Source of the DNA: Paracoccaceae bacterium
GTDB lineage: Bacteria; Pseudomonadota; Alphaproteobacteria; Rhodobacterales; Rhodobacteraceae
DNA length: 64,000 bases
Reading direction: 5' to 3'
NCBI GenBank assembly: GCA_023260655.1
Contig: JALQUU010000001.1
Location: forward strand, 51,193-115,192
Shown one piece after another: positions 16,058 through 51,187 of the stretch; within the stretch, counting starts at the first letter, position 1, and each line of letters starts with the position of its first letter. The notes below the pieces were generated by a model, which saw nothing but the letters and a program-made list of their open reading frames with translations, was not told the DNA's origin and did no database searches. The position numbers were made by a program, and so were the translations under genes.

Positions 16058-16132
<75 letters not shown>

Positions 16133-42797: not shown

Positions 42798-43802
42798 TTA
42801 GTGCTTCGCGTTGATCTCTTGTGCAAAAGCGATGTTCTCGGCGCCAACTTCGGCTTCGAACTGCGACCAAACCGGCTTCATGGCGTCAACCCATGCTGCG
42901 CGCTGCTCTGCAGTCAGCTCGCGAACGGTGCCGCCAGCTGCGATGATCGCGGCTTTGGCTTCTTCGTTCACACGGGTCGATTCCGCGTTACGGACTTCGG
43001 TCACTTCTTTCATGATGGTGCCGAGCTGCGTGCGCACGTCTTCCGGCAGGCCATTCCACCAGTCAGCCGAAGTCACGACCATGTAGTCGATGATGCCGTG
43101 GTTGGTTTCGGTGATGCCGTCCTGCACTTCGAAGAACTTCTGGCCGTAGATGTTCGACCAGGTGTTTTCCTGACCGTCCACAACGCCGGTCTGCAGCGCG
43201 CCGTAAACTTCTGCGAATGCCATCGGCTGCGCGGTCGCGCCAAGTGCGTTCATCTGGGCCACGAGCACGTCCGAAGGCTGCACGCGGAACTTGAGACCGT
43301 TTGCGTCGCTCGGCAGGTTTAGCGCCTTGTTGGCCGAAATCTGCTTCATGCCGTTGTGCCAGAAGGCCAGCGCCAGAACGCCACGACGGGTCATCGACTC
43401 TTTCATCTTCTGACCGATTTCCGAGTTCTGGAACTCGTCAACCGCGTCCACGTTCTTGAACATGAACGGAAGGTCGAAGAGGCGGAACTGCTTGGTGATC
43501 GGCTCGAAGAGCGAGAGCGAGGGAGCAGCGAGCTGCACGTCGCCCTGAAGCATCGCTTCCAGCACCTTTTCGTCGGTGTAGAGCGTCGAGTTCGGGAACA
43601 CTTCCATGCAGGCCTTGCCGTTCATTTCGGTGTTCACACGCTCGGCGAGCAGCGACGCGGCAATACCCTTCGGGTGCTTGTCGGTGTTAGTCACGTGGCT
43701 GAACTTGATGACGATCTCGCCAGCATCGCAGCTTGCCGAAGCCGCTTGGCCGGTGACTGCCAGTGCAAGCGCCATTGCGGCGCCGGTCATAAACTTTTTC
43801 AT
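42798..43802 (-). CDS. dctP: TRAP transporter substrate-binding protein (C4-dicarboxylate type)
   Basis: A 334-aa periplasmic binding protein. Signal peptide MKKFMTGAAMALALAVTGQAASA; then EIVIKFSHVTNTDKHPKG, the usual first strand and helix of DctP. The organic acid-binding Arg region is KFRVQPSDVLVAQMNALGA (about 170), and EVYGALQTGVVDGQENTWSN (about 205) is diagnostic. Likely ligands are malate, fumarate and succinate. RBS GGGAGGAG. First gene of dctPQM; paired palindromes lie about 200-240 nt upstream. Confidence 0.94.
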   Translation of the reverse strand: MKKFMTGAAMALALAVTGQAASASCDAGEIVIKFSHVTNTDKHPKGIAASLLAERVNTEMNGKACMEVFPNSTLYTDEKVLEAMLQGDVQLAAPSLSLFEPITKQFRLFDLPFMFKNVDAVDEFQNSEIGQKMKESMTRRGVLALAFWHNGMKQISANKALNLPSDANGLKFRVQPSDVLVAQMNALGATAQPMAFAEVYGALQTGVVDGQENTWSNIYGQKFFEVQDGITETNHGIIDYMVVTSADWWNGLPEDVRTQLGTIMKEVTEVRNAESTRVNEEAKAAIIAAGGTVRELTAEQRAAWVDAMKPVWSQFEAEVGAENIAFAQEINAKH

Positions 43803-44368
43803 GAGAACTCCTCCCGAAGTCTTTTGCTAGAGAACCACCCTCTCCCCAGAGGATGTGGTGCGCGAAGAGTTGGCTCGAGAAGGCTTCAGATCAAGGGAAA
43901 GTGAAAAACTTGGCCCTTGTTCAAAAAACGCCAACATTTTCAGCAACCTAAATCAAATCCGCTTGTTAGATAGGCAAATCGCACCGCAGACCTGTGCGAA
44001 TTTCCGCACAGGCTTTCGTAAACTTCGTGCGGAAATCCGCACACGCGCCCGACCGAAGTGCGGCAGAGTCCGAAGGCCATAGGCGAATCAAAAATGATCA
44101 AAATATGAGATCCCTACACACTTTTAAGAATATGATCAAATCAGCCCTACATCGGATAGGATCGGTCCAATGTTATTAATTCCTATGGATTTTTAGCCTA
44201 TTCTTTCGTTCTGTTTATCAAAATACGACGTTCGTTATTACAACTTTTTGTCTAAGATATCACCATTTTTTCCCTGAAAAAATTCAGAAACAATTCCATT
44301 TTGCACTAAACTGCTAACCATCCCGTCCGGTGCCTTGGACGGTAACCAAAAACTCTTAGGTACAGATT
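43803..44368. promoter_or_regulatory. 566-nt AT-richer regulatory region between dctP and the pseudo-receiver gene
   Basis: A gene-free stretch separating divergent genes. It carries two palindromes near its middle (see separate entry), a repeated ATGATCAAA (about 44.09 and 44.13 kb) and a clearly AT-rich part toward 44.3 kb. Upstream of dctP, GGTGGTTCTCTAGC on the minus strand has the GG-N10-GC spacing of a sigma-54 promoter but a poor match elsewhere. ORFs listed here by the track have no coding look. Confidence 0.5.
43991..44042. promoter_or_regulatory. Tandem palindromes, putative operators for dctPQM
   Basis: CCTGTGCG-AATTTC-CGCACAGG (43991-44012) has perfect 8-bp arms, and GTGCGGA-AA-TCCGCAC (44027-44042) perfect 7-bp arms. 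Both contain TGCGGAAAT-CGCAC in opposite orientations and are centred 33 bp apart, about three helical turns. They lie roughly 190-240 bp upstream of dctP. DctD of rhizobia binds tandem sites upstream of dctA; the same logic with the DctD-like protein of this window is an inference. Confidence 0.55.
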
Positions 44369-44893
44369 ATGTTTCAGGTCTTGGCAGGGCGCTTCAAATC
44401 GATGGAAAACACCGTAAAAGCGTCGGATGGCTCGACATCTCCACAAACCGATATTTCCGATCGTCTGTTCGAAAAATTCCAGCGCTACAAGTCGGGGTTC
44501 GGCTTGGCCGGTGCGAATGTCCTTATCGTTTCCAAATCCCCGGAAGCGCTTGAAGCTTTGGCGGCAGGCCAGGGAGCGAATATCGTCTGGGCCCCCGATC
44601 TAGGCAAAACCAACGCACGTTTGTCGATCGATGCGGCGCACCCGCATTTCGTTTTATTCGAAATGGAAAAATCCGCAGACATCGTGAAGCAAACAGAAAC
44701 TTACAAAGCATTCCGCAAGACGCATCCGAATGTCGTCATCATTCTTTGTTCGGAAAAGTTCATGTGGGATGAAACCGGCCCCTCACGCCCGGCGTTCTGC
44801 GATGCCGTCGTCGCGCTGCCCACAACCCCTGAAAAGCTGCACGCGGCCGCCCATGCGGCCCAGAAGAATCGTGCACGAAACCTTCACAGATAA
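44369..44893 (+). CDS. Degenerate receiver-domain (pseudo-receiver) protein
   Basis: A 174-aa protein. After a roughly 45-residue N-terminal tail it resembles a response-regulator receiver domain: NVLIVSKSPEALEAL (beta1-alpha1), PHFVLFEMEKSADI (beta3), HPNVVIILCSEKF (beta4) and CDAVVALPTTPEKLHAA (beta5-alpha5). The acidic pair after beta1, the phospho-Asp (replaced by Glu in FEME) and the conserved Lys (Leu-Pro) are all missing, so it cannot be phosphorylated in the usual way. There is no output domain. Two 83-aa paralogues follow. Start at 44369 has only a weak AGG; ATG at 44402 is possible. Confidence 0.6.
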   Translation: MFQVLAGRFKSMENTVKASDGSTSPQTDISDRLFEKFQRYKSGFGLAGANVLIVSKSPEALEALAAGQGANIVWAPDLGKTNARLSIDAAHPHFVLFEMEKSADIVKQTETYKAFRKTHPNVVIILCSEKFMWDETGPSRPAFCDAVVALPTTPEKLHAAAHAAQKNRARNLHR

Positions 44894-44905
44894 CTATCGA
44901 GCACC

Positions 44906-45157
44906 ATGAGTAAAATTTCCACCACCCCGGCAACCGCATCGCTCCGCCAGCACATCAACAGCCTGTCGAGCAATCCCTTCCCGCGTCAAAGTACCCTGCA
45001 GGACCAGTTCTTCGACTTCAAGATCAAGGACGTCCTCGCCATGTCAGATAGCGAGCTGAGAAAACAACTCGGCTACGTTGTGGGCATGGGTGAAGTTTCG
45101 CGCAAAAAGTTTCTTTCAATTCTGGAAGACATTCGGAAGCAGAACGCCCCGCTGTAA
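44906..45157 (+). CDS. 83-aa protein of unrecognised family, paralogue A
   Basis: An 83-aa soluble protein, 12 nt behind the pseudo-receiver gene. It shares about 60 percent identity over 66 residues with the protein encoded at 45480. Conserved parts are SLRQHI, PFPRQSTLQDQFF (about 24-36) and YVVGMGEVSRKKFLSILE (about 57-74). The last resembles a helix-hairpin-helix (hairpin VGMG), so nucleic-acid binding is possible. Predicted almost all-helical, basic C-terminus. No match to a named family that I know. Confidence 0.6.
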   Translation: MSKISTTPATASLRQHINSLSSNPFPRQSTLQDQFFDFKIKDVLAMSDSELRKQLGYVVGMGEVSRKKFLSILEDIRKQNAPL

Positions 45158-45479
45158 CCGGGTAAGCAATAAAATCGCTCTTTCATCGTAAAATGTATGA
45201 ATATGCGCATTTAAACGCGTCGCCATTCATCCATTTGTTACGAAAAATGGAAATGCATGCGTGCTTTGTAGCCACAACAATCCGGACTATTCGAACGCGC
45301 CAAAACTAGCCATTATTGCCGGTGATTTATCACTTCGGCTCCACTAAATTTGTATCAAGCAAAATGATATTTCTTTATAGACTGCGCGATCGCGGTAATT
45401 GGTTTTCATGTGCTCTTCTTCGGTCTGGGAAAAAAATGCGCCTCAGGGAATTTTGAGTAGAAAGAAACGCGTGCTCCAA
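45158..45479. other. 322-nt AT-rich spacer between the two 83-aa paralogues
   Basis: No gene or RNA is evident. The stretch is much richer in A and T than the rest of the window and contains CCATTT-GTTACGAA-AAATGG as an inverted repeat near 45.24 kb. It probably holds a separate promoter for the second paralogue. Frames listed by the track on the minus strand here are antisense shadows. Confidence 0.4.
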
Positions 45480-45731
45480 ATGCTCTCCAAAGACATCGAA
45501 ACCTATTCTCTCCGCCACTACATCAGCGGACTGCCGGTTTTTCCTTTTCCGCGCCAGTCGACTCTTGAAGACCAGTTCTTCAACCTGAAGGTTAAAGAAG
45601 TTCTGGATATGTCGCCAAAGCAACTCCGCCGCGAAGTTGCCTATGTCGTCGGTATGGGGCCTGTCACGCGGAAGAAATTCCTCACCCTTCTCGAAGAACT
45701 CCGCACAGACCTGCGCGGCCCCGCCGCGTAA
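45480..45731 (+). CDS. 83-aa protein of unrecognised family, paralogue B
   Basis: Another 83-aa protein, the tandem duplicate of the gene at 44906: SLRHYI, PFPRQSTLEDQFF, VLDMSPKQLRRE and YVVGMGPVTRKKFLTLLEELR. It is more Arg/Glu-rich than copy A and differs completely in the first 9 and last 8 residues. Start at ATG 45480 is chosen because it gives the same length as copy A; a GTG nine bases earlier is in frame, and no strong ribosome-binding site precedes either. The longer track ORF from 45399 reads through non-coding sequence. Confidence 0.6.
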   Translation: MLSKDIETYSLRHYISGLPVFPFPRQSTLEDQFFNLKVKEVLDMSPKQLRREVAYVVGMGPVTRKKFLTLLEELRTDLRGPAA

Positions 45732-45831
45732 GCCACCGCCGCTTGCGATTTTCCCGCCCCGATGCCATGCTCGTCGGGCCGCGGCCCCGCTATACAAACA
45801 AGAACCGTTGGCACCGTACGAGGAACCCGCA

Positions 45832-47178
45832 GTGCCAACGCCCAGCCGCAAGAACCTGCTGCTCATCAGCCTTGATGATTGCGTGGCCTTCTGGCGCTAC
45901 CGCGATCTCTTCGGGCAAACACTTCAAACCCCAAACCTCGACCGCATCTGCGCCCAGTCCACCGCTTTCCACGCGGCCTATAGCCAAGTGCCCCTCTGCG
46001 GCCCCTCGCGCGCCAGCTTCATGTCCGGCCAGTCGCCACACACGTTGGGGATTTTCTTGAACAAAGTCAGCGTGTTCGACCGTTTCTCCCCGAAAGACAT
46101 GTGGGCCTACCGCCTCAAGGAACAGGGCTGGTTCTGCTCCTCCGGCGGCAAGGTGCACCACGGCTTTCGCCCCCGCGCCGAAGAGCCGCACAACGTCCTT
46201 TACAACGACGAACGCAAACACTTCCGCATCGACATCAAGCTGCCCCCGAACCGCGAGCAAACCGCGCTCGGCGGCCACGGCAACGGCCTCGCCACCCTCG
46301 ATCCCGCCGACGACCACCGCTATTACGATGCCAATTCCGCCGATAGCGCGATCGAATTCCTGAACGGCCAGAAGCCCGGCGCGCCCTTCTACCGCGAGAT
46401 CGGCTTCTTCGGCCCCCACACCCCCTTTATCACGCCGCTGCGCTACAAAAAGCTCTACCGCTACGGCAAGATGCGCCAACCGGAAGCTTGGGCAAACGGC
46501 TGGGATCACAACGCCTTCGCCGACACTTTCATGCGCGAGAACCTCGATCTGAAGCGCAACCTCCACTGGCAGAAAAGCGTGAGGAACTATTTCTCCGCCC
46601 TCAGCCATGTCGACCACCACTTGGGCCGCGTCTGGGACGCCCTCAAGGCATCTTCGCATGCCGAGAACACCCTCGTCGTGATCCTCTCCGATCACGGTTT
46701 CCACTTGGGCGAAAAGCACCGCTTTCGCAAAACCTCGCTCTGGGAACAGGTCGCGGGTGTCCCTTTCATCCTGCATGACCCCGCCCGCCCCGAAGCCCGT
46801 GTGGTCAATGATCCCGTCGCTGTGATCGACGTCGGCCCCACCGTGCTCGACTGGATGGGCCTCCCGCCGCTCGAAAACTCCCCCGGCGTCTCGCTCCTGC
46901 TCTGCATGGAGGGCGCCCCGCCGCCGGACCGCGCCATCCCAACCTTCTTCAACGGCTCCACCGGCATCCGCTACGGCGATTACCGCTTCATCCGCTACGA
47001 AGACGGCTCCACCGAGCTTTTCAACATCCGTGACGACTGGTGGTGCCTGAAAAACCTCGGCCCCGACCACCCCGAACACGCCCCCATGCTCGAACGTCTC
47101 ATGGCCATGCTCCCGGATTGGGGCGTTGATCCTGCGAGGCACTGGGATGTCTCGGGCGACGATGAAGACGATGACTAG
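45832..47178 (+). CDS. Cys-type sulfatase (iduronate-2-sulfatase/choline-sulfatase-like)
   Basis: A 448-aa alkaline-phosphatase-superfamily sulfatase. The first strand LLLISLDDC carries metal-binding Asp residues, and the formylglycine signature C-X-P-S-R is CGPSRASFMSG (about residue 59). VVILSDHGFHLGEKHRF (about 283) supplies the second metal and catalytic His/Lys. No signal peptide, so it appears cytoplasmic. Start is GTG 45832 behind GAGGA. It overlaps the gene for its activating enzyme by 17 nt. Substrate not deducible, although IFLNKVSVFD and GFFGPHTPF recall iduronate-sulfatase-like enzymes. Confidence 0.88.
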   Translation: MPTPSRKNLLLISLDDCVAFWRYRDLFGQTLQTPNLDRICAQSTAFHAAYSQVPLCGPSRASFMSGQSPHTLGIFLNKVSVFDRFSPKDMWAYRLKEQGWFCSSGGKVHHGFRPRAEEPHNVLYNDERKHFRIDIKLPPNREQTALGGHGNGLATLDPADDHRYYDANSADSAIEFLNGQKPGAPFYREIGFFGPHTPFITPLRYKKLYRYGKMRQPEAWANGWDHNAFADTFMRENLDLKRNLHWQKSVRNYFSALSHVDHHLGRVWDALKASSHAENTLVVILSDHGFHLGEKHRFRKTSLWEQVAGVPFILHDPARPEARVVNDPVAVIDVGPTVLDWMGLPPLENSPGVSLLLCMEGAPPPDRAIPTFFNGSTGIRYGDYRFIRYEDGSTELFNIRDDWWCLKNLGPDHPEHAPMLERLMAMLPDWGVDPARHWDVSGDDEDDD

Positions 47179-48103
47179 TGCGCCAAAATGCGGGTGCACC
47201 CCAACTGGTGCGCCTTCCGCCGCGCCTCTGCGCCTTACCAGATCCGCGCGCCCCGCGCCGCCCAGCGCCCGCCCCATTCCCGGCGGTCGCGGCACCATCG
47301 GCACCGCGCGCCCTGAAATCCCCTTGGACGGAGAAGGCCCCGAGCGCCCCACGCGCCTCAAACCCTTCCTCCTCTCCGAAACCGCAATCACCAACGCCGA
47401 GTTTGCCGAATTCGTCGCAGACACGGGCCATGTCACCGATGCCGAGCGCCTCGGCACCTCCTTCGTCTTCTGGGGCACCCTCCCCGACAGCACTCCCGAA
47501 ACCCGCGCCGTCCATGACGCCGAATGGTGGCGGCAAGTCGAAGGTGCCAACTGGCGCGCCATCAACGGCCCCGGCACCGAAAGCACCGCATGGCACCCCG
47601 ATCACCCCGTCGTACATGTCTCGTGGAACGACGCCGCCGCCTATGCCGCATGGGCCGGAGGCCGCCTGCCCTCTGAAGCCGAATGGGAACACGCCGCGCG
47701 CGGCGGCCTCGCCAAAGCCCGCTACCCATGGGGCGAAGCCGAGCCCGACGACACTGCCTTCCAGCCCTGCAACATCTGGCAAGGCACCTTCCCCATCCGC
47801 AACACCTGCGCCGATGGCTACGCCGCCACCGCCCCCGCGCGCAGCTTCGCGCCCAACGGCTACGGCCTCTACAACATGTGCGGCAACACTTGGGAATGGA
47901 TCGCGGATCGCTTCACCGTCGCCTCGATTAAGAAAGAGGTTCAGGCCCGCGCCCGTGCCCTCAAAGATTTCCGCGTTCTGAAAGGTGGCTCCTATCTCTG
48001 CCACCGCAGCTATTGCTACCGTTACCGGATCGCTGCCCGCTCCTCCAACACCCCCGACACCAGCACCAGCCACCAAGGCTTCCGCGTCGCGTGGGATGGC
48101 TGA
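47162..48103 (+). CDS. Formylglycine-generating enzyme (SUMF1/FGE)
   Basis: A 313-aa FGE-sulfatase domain protein that converts the sulfatase active-site Cys to formylglycine using oxygen and copper. The catalytic pair is intact in GGSYLCHRSYCYRYR (about residues 280-294), which separates it from the many SUMF1-like proteins lacking these cysteines. Further family signatures are HVSWNDAAAYAAWAGGRLPSE and GNTWEWIADRF. The start ATG at 47162 overlaps the sulfatase end, giving translational coupling. An N-terminal CGCTPTG segment also fits bacterial FGEs. It abuts the convergent dctD-like gene (3 nt). Confidence 0.93.
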   Translation: MKTMTSAPKCGCTPTGAPSAAPLRLTRSARPAPPSARPIPGGRGTIGTARPEIPLDGEGPERPTRLKPFLLSETAITNAEFAEFVADTGHVTDAERLGTSFVFWGTLPDSTPETRAVHDAEWWRQVEGANWRAINGPGTESTAWHPDHPVVHVSWNDAAAYAAWAGGRLPSEAEWEHAARGGLAKARYPWGEAEPDDTAFQPCNIWQGTFPIRNTCADGYAATAPARSFAPNGYGLYNMCGNTWEWIADRFTVASIKKEVQARARALKDFRVLKGGSYLCHRSYCYRYRIAARSSNTPDTSTSHQGFRVAWDG

Positions 48104-48106
48104 GCG

Positions 48107-49342
48107 TCAGCGAAACTCTTCGGGTTTCAACCCGTAACGCGCCAGCTTGTCGTAAAAGGTCTTGCGCGGCAGTTTCAACCGCTCTGCCGCTTCCGCCGCC
48201 CGCCCTCCAGCGCGCCGCAGCGCCGCCACCAGAAGTGAGCGTTCCACCTGTGCCATCTGCTCCGCCAGCCCCGGCTCCTCGCCCGCCGCCGCATCCTCCG
48301 GCCCGCCCATCCCGAGCGCAAACCGCATCGCCGCCGACATCAAGGCCCGCGCATTCCCCGGCCAGTCCCGCGCCATCAACCCCGCCACCACATCGGGCGA
48401 GATTTCCGGTGCCGTCAGCCCCGCCTGCTCGCAGGCCTGCGCCACATATTGCCGGAACAGCACCGGAATATCCTCTGGCCGCTCGGAAAGTGCCGGAATC
48501 CGCACCTGCAACACATCGAAGCGGTAATAGAGCTCGGCATTGAACCGCCCCGCCGCCATGACCTCCGCAAGATCATGGTTCGAACCCGCGATCACCCGCG
48601 CCCCCGCGCCACCTTCAACGGCTTCCAACAGCGCAAACTGCGCCTCGGGGCCCATATTGGTCACCTCGTCGAGGAACAGCGATCCGCCCTGCGCCGCCTC
48701 CAACGCCGCCACCACGGCCTGCGCATCCATCCCCGCCGCTGCGCGTTTGACGAAGGGCCCTTTACTGTCCGGCCCCAAAAGATGAACCACCTCGGCAACC
48801 TTCGAAATCCCGACCCCCGGCGCACCCGTAACCAAAACCTCGCCCCGCGCCGCCGACACCGCCCGCACCCGCGCGCGCAAGCTTTCCGCCAAAGCCGAAA
48901 CCCCGTGCAGCATCCGCGCCGCCGCGTCGCCCGTGGTAAGCTGCGCCTTCAGTCGGCGGTTTTCCATCACCAGCGAACGGGTTTTCAACGCCCGCTCCAA
49001 TTCCGCCATCAGATCCGTGCCCGCGCAGGGCTTCTCCAGAAACCCGAACGCGCCCTTCCCCATGGCCTTTACCGCCATCGGAATATCGCCCTCGCCTGTC
49101 AAAAGGATCACCGGAAGGTCTGGATCAATCCCTTGCGCGTAATCCAGCAAATGGAACCCGTCCCGCCCCGGCATCCGGATGTCAGATAGGATCACCCCCG
49201 CAAACTCGCGCTGGATCAGGTCTTTCGCCTCGACGAAACTCCCCGCCGCGCGCACCGAAAGCCCGCCCAGCTCCAAGGTTTGCGAAAGCGCTTCCCGCAC
49301 CGCCGCATCGTCATCCACCAGAAGCACAGTCACCGTAGTCAT
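48107..49342 (-). CDS. dctD: DctD/NtrC-family response regulator with degenerate AAA+ domain
   Basis: A 411-aa regulator with an intact receiver (acidic VDDD near 10, phospho-Asp D54 in LSDIRMPG, Thr 82, Lys 104 in LEKP), an AAA+ domain and a Fis-type helix-turn-helix (LKLPRKTFYDKL). The AAA+ part lacks the GAFTGA loop that contacts sigma-54, and its Walker A reads GAPGVGISK with no Lys at the GK position; Walker B-like GGSLFLDEV remains. It therefore probably activates a sigma-70 promoter or represses, as Rhodobacter NtrC does without GAFTGA. Start overlaps dctB by 4 nt. The symbol reflects family, not proven target. Confidence 0.8.
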   Translation of the reverse strand: MTTVTVLLVDDDAAVREALSQTLELGGLSVRAAGSFVEAKDLIQREFAGVILSDIRMPGRDGFHLLDYAQGIDPDLPVILLTGEGDIPMAVKAMGKGAFGFLEKPCAGTDLMAELERALKTRSLVMENRRLKAQLTTGDAAARMLHGVSALAESLRARVRAVSAARGEVLVTGAPGVGISKVAEVVHLLGPDSKGPFVKRAAAGMDAQAVVAALEAAQGGSLFLDEVTNMGPEAQFALLEAVEGGAGARVIAGSNHDLAEVMAAGRFNAELYYRFDVLQVRIPALSERPEDIPVLFRQYVAQACEQAGLTAPEISPDVVAGLMARDWPGNARALMSAAMRFALGMGGPEDAAAGEEPGLAEQMAQVERSLLVAALRRAGGRAAEAAERLKLPRKTFYDKLARYGLKPEEFR

Positions 49343-51129
49343 GCCGGTCCTTTCAGGGTTTCCGGCGCCGCCTGTAGCTCAACCGTAAACACCGCGCCAC
49401 CCTCGGGGCGGTTCCGCCCACGGATCGCGCCCCCGAAACTCTGCACAAGCCCGTAGCTGATCGACAGGCCCAGCCCCATACCTTCCCCCGCGCCCACTTC
49501 CTTCGTGGAATAGAACGGGTCGAAAATCCGCTCCGGCTCACGGATCCCCGGCCCCGTATCCGCCACATCGAGCCGCACCCGCTCAGGATCGGCCAAGAGC
49601 GTCAGCCGCACCTCGCGCGGCTCCATGCCAGCCATCGCATCCGCCGCATTGCTCAGGAGGTTCACCACCACCTGCCCCAAGCGCACCTCGCCACCCATCA
49701 CCCAAACAGGCTCCTTGGGCCGCTCCCATTGCACGGCCACTTCCGCCGTCTTCAATCGCGCCTCTGCGAGTTCCAGCGCCGCGTCGACAATCCCCACCAG
49801 ATCCACCCGTTTCACCGGCTCGCTTTCTTGCCGCGCGAAGGCCCTGAGGTTCTTGATGATCCGCCCCATCCGGTGCGCCATCTCGCCGATCCGTCGCAGA
49901 TTGTCCCCAGCCACATCCTCGCGCCCGCGCTCCAGAAAGGCCGATCCGTTCTCCGCATATTGCTGGATCGCCATCAGCGGCTGGTTCAATTCATGGCTGA
50001 TCCCCGCCGACATCTGCCCCAGCGCCGAAAGCTTTCCGGCCTGCACCAATTCCGCCTGCGCCCGCTTCAGCGCCGTCTCCGCCGCGCGACGCTCCGCTAC
50101 TTCCTCGGAAAGCTTCTCGTTCGCCGCGCTGAGTTCCAACGTACGATCCGCCACCCGCGCTTCGAGTTGCTCGTTGGCCTCCATCAGCGTCCGCCGCCGC
50201 GCGTGGAACACGAAGATCACCGCCCCGAAGGCCAAGCAGATCGCCGCCACCGCCGCCGCCTGCAACCCCGCGATCCGCCGCGCAGGCTCGACATCCAGAA
50301 GCGTCTCGGCCTGCATCCCGATCACCGGCAGTTCCTGCACCAGATAGAGCCCCTTCGACGGCACATAGGGCGACCAGTCCTCTTCCCAGATCACATGCCC
50401 CGCCAACACCTCTTGCGAAAGCCCCGCCCGCGCCGCTTCCGGCGTCATGTCTGGCGGCGCAATCCCAAGGCCCGCGCGCCGCCATCCCAGCAACTCGCTC
50501 CGGTTCGAGATGAAAACCTCCCCCGCCTCATCCGTGAACCAGATCGCAGGCCGCGCCCCGCGCCATTCCGCCTCCAACCGCTCCACATCGACTACAACCA
50601 GAAGCGCCCCGGCCACACCGCCACCGGACTTGAACACTGGCGCGGCAAAGAAATAGGCCCGTGGCGCGCGCTCTGAACTCGTCTCGCCCGCAAATCCCGG
50701 CGCAGGCCCGTGCCCTTCCCCCAAAGCCCCCTGAAACCCGAGCTTCAGATACTCCGCATCCTCCACCCGTGGCGGCAACCGCCCGCTTGCAGATGAAAGC
50801 ACAAACCCGCCCGGGCTCACCACAGCGATATCGAGAACCCCGGTCTTATCCGCGAGCCGCCGCATCACCTCGGATGCCCCGAGGTCCGTGCCACTTTCCA
50901 GAAGCGCCCCCACCGTCGGATGATCCGCCGTCACCACCGCCAAGGTCTGATAAAGTTGCAACTGCCCCGTCAAACGGTCCGTCGCCAAGAGCAAATCCGC
51001 CTCGCCCCGATCCGCCAACTGGTGCAAGGCCTGCACATAGCCATAGCGCCACACCCCTCCGGCAAACACCGCCACAACGGCGAGGAAGCCGAGGATCAAG
51101 CCCATCCGACGTGCAAAAAATCTGTCCAT
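49339..51129 (-). CDS. dctB: DctB-like sensor histidine kinase
   Basis: A 596-aa membrane kinase with two transmembrane helices (about 9-30 and 290-312) enclosing a large periplasmic double-PAS-like sensor (contains VLSSASGRLPPRV and FFAAPVFKSGGGVAGALLVVVDV). A coiled coil follows, then HisKA (H-box GISHELNQPL), N-box NLLSNAADAM, DTGPGI and GMGLGLSI. The domain order is that of C4-dicarboxylate sensor DctB. It is transcribed before its regulator, and the pair lies 5 kb from dctPQM. Start at 51129 follows AGGTAAGG. Confidence 0.87.
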   Translation of the reverse strand: MDRFFARRMGLILGFLAVVAVFAGGVWRYGYVQALHQLADRGEADLLLATDRLTGQLQLYQTLAVVTADHPTVGALLESGTDLGASEVMRRLADKTGVLDIAVVSPGGFVLSSASGRLPPRVEDAEYLKLGFQGALGEGHGPAPGFAGETSSERAPRAYFFAAPVFKSGGGVAGALLVVVDVERLEAEWRGARPAIWFTDEAGEVFISNRSELLGWRRAGLGIAPPDMTPEAARAGLSQEVLAGHVIWEEDWSPYVPSKGLYLVQELPVIGMQAETLLDVEPARRIAGLQAAAVAAICLAFGAVIFVFHARRRTLMEANEQLEARVADRTLELSAANEKLSEEVAERRAAETALKRAQAELVQAGKLSALGQMSAGISHELNQPLMAIQQYAENGSAFLERGREDVAGDNLRRIGEMAHRMGRIIKNLRAFARQESEPVKRVDLVGIVDAALELAEARLKTAEVAVQWERPKEPVWVMGGEVRLGQVVVNLLSNAADAMAGMEPREVRLTLLADPERVRLDVADTGPGIREPERIFDPFYSTKEVGAGEGMGLGLSISYGLVQSFGGAIRGRNRPEGGAVFTVELQAAPETLKGPA

Positions 51130-51187
51130 ACCCTTACCTAGCGCCAAGCCGCTTGCCTTGGCCAGTGGGAGCGGCTTCTCTCACCTC

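Follow-up and report, generated by a model that had tools for sequence, protein, structure and literature searches.

Bacterial pseudo-receivers act without phosphorylation of an aspartate, through the binding of a partner or through their own abundance, and how they are switched on and off is an open question (PMC12632262). One of them, CmrT of C. difficile, probably acts together with CmrRS, a kinase and its regulator (PMC12632262). Described here is a set in which a gene for a receiver-like protein is followed by genes for two small paralogous proteins.

The set lies in a stretch of 64,000 nucleotides, hereafter the window, from a Paracoccaceae bacterium whose 2.67 Mb Rhodobacteraceae genome is 77.5% complete. 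An earlier note, made from the letters of this DNA alone, had described a receiver-like protein without its acidic pocket and lysine, followed by twin 83-aa proteins of no recognised family, as a possible new regulatory set. The follow-up compared the locus with other genomes of the genus, family, order and class, and with libraries of protein families and structures.

Organisation of the locus

The three open reading frames were found as the earlier note had described them (Table 1). The first 83-aa gene, A, starts 12 bp after the stop codon of the pseudo-receiver gene, and in the metagenome-assembled genome (MAG) of Rhodobacteraceae bacterium isolate WB5_5_233 there is a 4-bp overlap between them; on account of this spacing they are very likely to be co-transcribed and are perhaps translationally coupled. 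The product of the second gene, B, is 83 aa long when read from its ATG (a TTG start further upstream would yield 110 aa), and B may have a promoter of its own; a sigma-70 scan recognised none.

Table 1. Features of the three-gene set and its surroundings in the window
Feature	Position	Strand	Remarks
Pseudo-receiver gene	44369..44893	+	174 aa, pI 9.1; receiver-like core at approximately residues 44-170
83-aa protein A	44906..45157	+	pI 9.8; modelled as a small bundle of helices (pLDDT 79)
83-aa protein B	45480..45731	+	paralogue of A, pI 9.5
AT-rich leader 5' of the pseudo-receiver gene	44090..44368	+	about 45% identity to WB5_5_233, not conserved
AT-rich spacer separating A from B, 322 bp	45158..45479	+	not conserved relative to WB5_5_233
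Variable island, approximate extent	44000..45745		identity drop relative to MAG WB5_5_233
Left flank: TRAP solute-binding protein DctP	42798..43802	-	divergently oriented; protein 97% identical in WB5_5_233
Right flank: sulfatase-like gene	45832..47178	+	named from sequence, start approximate

The AT-richness and long spacers remarked upon earlier are evident in the composition of the region, which has a GC content of 0.49-0.52 per kb relative to 0.57-0.67 in the surroundings, with spacers of 566 bp (GC 0.44) and 322 bp (GC 0.42). Nothing that would account for the length of these spacers emerged when the region was scanned with Rfam and for sigma-70 promoters and repeats.

The sulfatase-like flanking gene is 95% identical in WB5_5_233 and 68% identical in a third genome of the genus (G002). 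Within positions 45832-48103 of the window it is followed by a gene whose sequence reads like that of a formylglycine-generating enzyme. Upstream of dctP are two palindromes close to TGTGCGGAAATCCGCACA (43993-44010 and 44026-44043), each with one mismatch, where 0.05 matches would be expected by chance; a similar palindrome is present in G002. These resemble operators and might belong to the response regulator/sensor kinase pair encoded at 48107-51147.

Receiver descent of the 174-aa protein

At the positions that carry the acidic pair, the phospho-acceptor Asp and the Lys of receivers, the window protein has Ser and Lys, Glu and Leu, respectively, with a Ser and the next Pro retained, in agreement with the earlier claim that acidic pocket and lysine are gone. 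The copy in WB5_5_233 is likewise without the acidic pair, the Asp and the Lys. Judged by these substitutions, the protein is predicted to be no longer phosphorylatable in the usual way.

That it is nevertheless a degenerate receiver, as had been proposed, is borne out by profile comparison: when the family profile was aligned with the true receivers of the same loci, hhalign gave a probability of 93% and a score of 43.8 over 110 columns, with at most 17.9 in 60 column shuffles. In a direct search the window protein hit a true receiver in another genome (G007; 42% over 61 residues, E 6e-4), which has its Asp and Lys intact and forms the end of a 997-aa frame, a hybrid kinase; with a true receiver as the query, an ORF of a family locus was recovered at E 1.3e-6. 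Among library models, TorS matches three of 17 family members (best E 3.4e-6), ErdR and NtrX match others weakly, and Response_reg matches three, also weakly; the window protein, taken alone, is not recognised as a receiver by Pfam. AlphaFold modelling from an alignment of two sequences reached a pLDDT of 34. On sequence grounds, then, the 174-aa protein is a receiver-derived pseudo-receiver.

A pseudo-receiver family in the Rhodobacteraceae

A profile search found relatives of the pseudo-receiver in 49 of 397 Rhodobacteraceae genomes, with up to three in a genome, some of the weakest matches, in long frames, possibly being true receivers. The profile was grown from weak matches, and 17 members were aligned; their common motif resembles VD-L--FR---P---V-L-S----DD------ICDATLR-P. 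None of the 17 has kept the acidic pair and only four the Lys, while all have the Ser/Thr and the Pro after the Lys; the phospho-acceptor position is occupied by Asp in seven, by Asn in seven and otherwise by E, K or M. Some members appear to have an N-terminal hydrophobic, membrane-like segment. The family thus reads as a diverse one, unnamed in the libraries searched, and as a previously unrecognised branch of an established protein type; the literature search returned the review of pseudo-receivers cited above (PMC12632262) but no paper on it.

Of 40 family loci, 10 contain a NarL-type regulator of one subfamily at a distance of up to approximately 6 kb, and none was found in 20 control regions taken from these genomes (exact one-sided p ~0.01). 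This is a modest statistic, as seven of the ten loci had themselves contributed to the profile used to find the regulator; in the second batch by itself the count is 3/20. The loci with such a regulator usually also encode a hybrid kinase of PAS-HisKA-HATPase-REC(-Hpt) architecture. Two NarL-type regulator/hybrid-kinase pairs exist in the window's genome (G000:C265:30400-31014 and G000:C111:27997-28605), neither adjoining the set; the latter is located on the same contig as the window, at a distance of about 68 kb.

Hybrid-kinase and NarL-type-regulator clusters of this genome outside the window are contained in the extracts L136 (6395-10875) and L137 (2683-6609); one includes a secreted-looking 171-aa protein that matched no NCBIfam model, in a layout also present in WB5_5_233 (L138). 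Elsewhere, tandem members of the pseudo-receiver family seem to occur in two loci (L063 and L068), and the member on plasmid pEJ01 of Rhodobacter xanthinilyticus (NZ_CP017782.1; L027 5349-6234), annotated 'hypothetical protein', is preceded by a second ORF that looks receiver-like.

A rare family of 83-aa proteins

The description of A and B as twin paralogues holds: 68 residues align without gaps at about 60% identity, with a BLOSUM62 score of 217, where 1000 shuffles reached no more than 47. When the window is compared with WB5_5_233, the differences at first, second and third codon positions number 15/11/41 in A and 8/6/38 in B, and dN/dS is approximately 0.08-0.13. With changes so concentrated at third positions, both genes are clearly coding and under purifying selection.

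Neither A, B nor the pseudo-receiver had a meaningful match in Pfam, NCBIfam, PHROGs, PADLOC or the PDB, and searches of plasmids, phages and viral contigs with the 83-aa proteins gave nothing significant. Weak matches to HAND and Thump_like, far below the cut-offs, were rejected as known-family readings. The earlier statement that no known family accounts for these proteins therefore stands, a strong match to one having been sought in these libraries with none found.

Near sequences were found in two genomes, the window's own and WB5_5_233, with one distant homologue and one probable relative elsewhere. Searching 397 family genomes with single sequences gave one further, distant homologue, in a Lutimaribacter MAG (G060), which scores 31.0 bits with the profile of the four near sequences (at most 8.4 in 5000 shuffles). 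A 69-aa ORF (P0009), located where a flagellar gene cluster of another genome (G124) has a gap, scores 24.5 bits (shuffles at most 8.8); as its E value was 0.008 when 318 genomes were searched, it is a probable rather than a certain second distant relative. Profile searches of 395 genomes of the order and 385 of the class added no further credible relative. Two matches among the class genomes (L017 and L018, E 0.001-0.006) were judged to be due to chance, one falling in a CBS-domain-like protein and the other in a frame opposite a transposase-like ORF. The Lutimaribacter homologue has a vanadium-haloperoxidase-like gene on one side and the ATPase of an ABC exporter of the type I secretion kind on the other (L013 52-3182).

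The 83-aa proteins are hence a very rare new family of small proteins. The motifs PFPRQSTL-DQFF and YVVGMG, described previously as invariant, are so in the four sequences from two genomes, but once the two more distant relatives are added only M1, R14, P26, L31, F35, F36 and G62 remain.

A possible module acting without phosphorylation

The reading tentatively preferred here, as quite possible, is that the set forms a small regulatory module working without phosphorylation. The pseudo-receiver would act through protein-protein contact, with its activity set by its amount or by a partner. Protein A would be the likeliest direct partner, because its gene sits 12 bp downstream and overlaps that of the pseudo-receiver in WB5_5_233, and A and B, being small, basic and helical, would serve as outputs or adaptors, with B probably made from a separate transcription unit. 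As the wider family associates with hybrid histidine kinases and NarL-type regulators, the pseudo-receiver may modulate a phosphorelay of this type, such as either of the two elsewhere in the genome. Physical interaction, phosphorelay target and the output role of A and B are what we infer.

Receiver descent, the lost chemistry, the operon, the family neighbourhood, the two kinase/regulator pairs and purifying selection all argue for such a module. Against it, the set has neither a hybrid kinase nor a NarL-type regulator within 6 kb, be it in the window or at the WB5_5_233 locus (L012); the distant relatives of the 83-aa proteins do not adjoin a pseudo-receiver; the neighbourhood statistic is modest; the pseudo-receiver model has a pLDDT of 34; and the full set is carried by two MAGs only. 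Nor is the set required for the regulator, which G002 and another genome of the genus (G003) possess without it.

Divergence and possible exchange of the set

The principal competitor of the module is an accessory, exchangeable island of variable genes, with mobile or defence-like cargo swapped as alleles through recombination in the flanks and lying outside the cell's own regulation; the pseudo-receiver and the twins would then serve the island itself or act against phages or rivals. An empty site in one relative within the genus speaks for this. Besides the window, the full set was found in one other genome of the genus, WB5_5_233 (G001, RFUP01000026.1), with the same gene order and the same neighbours, TRAP DctP and the sulfatase-like gene. 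It was absent from the other two genus genomes examined, G002 and G003: the former has both neighbours with only 457 bp of DNA (GC content 0.62) between them, which amounts to an empty site, and in the latter (81% complete) the flanking neighbours were not found. The rarity of the 83-aa family as a whole, and the position of the pEJ01 pseudo-receiver relative among insertion sequences on a conjugative plasmid, point in the same direction.

So does an abrupt step in GC content and divergence. In 250-bp bins, the flanks are 0.84-0.99 identical between the window and WB5_5_233; identity falls to 0.45-0.78 at about 44000-45745 and then returns to 0.95, the last, incomplete bin being an alignment end effect. 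Synonymous divergence follows, with dS of 0.15-0.33 in the TRAP genes, approximately 0.8-1.0 in B, around 2 in A and saturation in the pseudo-receiver, which has 49% amino-acid identity to its WB5_5_233 counterpart beside neighbours that are 97-99% identical. This step rules out vertical descent at the neighbours' rate. With two genomes to compare, separate acquisition of the set in different versions and replacement of one version through recombination in the flanks account for it alike; locally fast evolution is a less likely third reading. Together with the empty site in G002, the step in identity and dS identifies the set as a variable island, exchanged or separately acquired. Of the two earlier suggestions prompted by its composition, recent acquisition or special regulation, the first is upheld in the form of variable or acquired DNA; a regulatory role is one that the set may have.

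An accessory island in the fuller sense of mobile or defensive cargo nonetheless appears somewhat doubtful. No integrase, transposase, direct repeats or tRNA was found at its borders (the only tRNA gene is a tRNA-Val at 16058); PADLOC anti-phage models, PHROGs, phages and plasmids gave no match; and a quarter of the pseudo-receiver family loci adjoin two-component genes. A little more doubtful is the combined proposition that the pseudo-receiver directly controls a new-family effector pair independently of phosphorylation and that close relatives swap divergent alleles of all three genes at one fixed position in the chromosome.

Do the 83-aa proteins bind nucleic acids?

A further possibility, which we consider unlikely, is that the 83-aa proteins are nucleic-acid binders of the SAM-like or helix-hairpin-helix kind, resembling the C-terminal domain (CTD) of the RNA polymerase alpha subunit and acting on transcription under control of the pseudo-receiver. 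They are basic (pI 9.5-9.8), and their AlphaFold model (mean pLDDT 79) is helical, with helices at residues 13-19, 28-32, 34-37, 40-44, 48-56 and 63-80. Several Foldseek matches are SAM-like folds, including an alpha-CTD protein that tops both lists (TM-score 0.48), and P0009 carries LLPKVGSKS with a weak RecR_HhH match (E 0.057). However, these fold matches are insignificant, none in the PDB or the viral library having an E below 1; A and B have no Pfam alpha-CTD or HhH match; and hhalign with the alpha CTD, represented by two sequences of which one was checked, gave a probability of 2% and a score of 15.9, relative to 14.9 for the best of 60 shuffles. Charge is not specific either, as the pseudo-receiver (pI 9.1) is basic as well. 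The helix-hairpin-helix reading of YVVGMG in the earlier note, with no significant fold match and one weak hit in a probable relative, is a guess; nucleic-acid binding is at most something these proteins might do. That the three genes are fast-diverging orphans without a common function, adjacent by chance, is improbable: a very narrow distribution and the low identity of the pseudo-receiver next to well-conserved neighbours would fit, but order and near-overlap are the same in two genomes, both genomes keep both paralogues, and the changes in A and B are mainly at third positions, with dN/dS of about 0.1.

Relation to known systems

The alpha CTD and helix-hairpin-helix proteins, as SAM-like folds, are like the 83-aa proteins in size, in helical content and in a glycine turn before the last helix, but are separated from them by the lack of any significant sequence, profile or fold match. 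NarL/ErdR-type regulators and TorS-like tripartite hybrid kinases often accompany members of the pseudo-receiver family in the Rhodobacteraceae (10/40 loci); these are ordinary phosphorelays, and none is adjacent in the window.

The main interest of the locus is a testable pair of pseudo-receiver and candidate partner, located in an island of unusual divergence. Allele-like divergence at one fixed site would also be relevant to the exchange of regulatory genes between close relatives, and the set offers a stand-alone pseudo-receiver, from a family spread across the Rhodobacteraceae, whose candidate partner, the product of a coupled gene, is only 83 residues long. Since that candidate is small and gene-coupled and the pseudo-receiver family is widespread, the question of the partner can be addressed directly. 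CmrT shares one operon with its two-component system (PMC12632262), whereas the window set stands apart from such genes. Like the bacterial pseudo-receivers and atypical response regulators reviewed in PMC12632262, the window protein is derived from a receiver and is without the phosphotransfer residues, and would be expected to act via partners or abundance; it differs from them in having diverged too far for detection with PF00072, in standing alone with no output domain attached, and in its coupling to a small protein from a new family.
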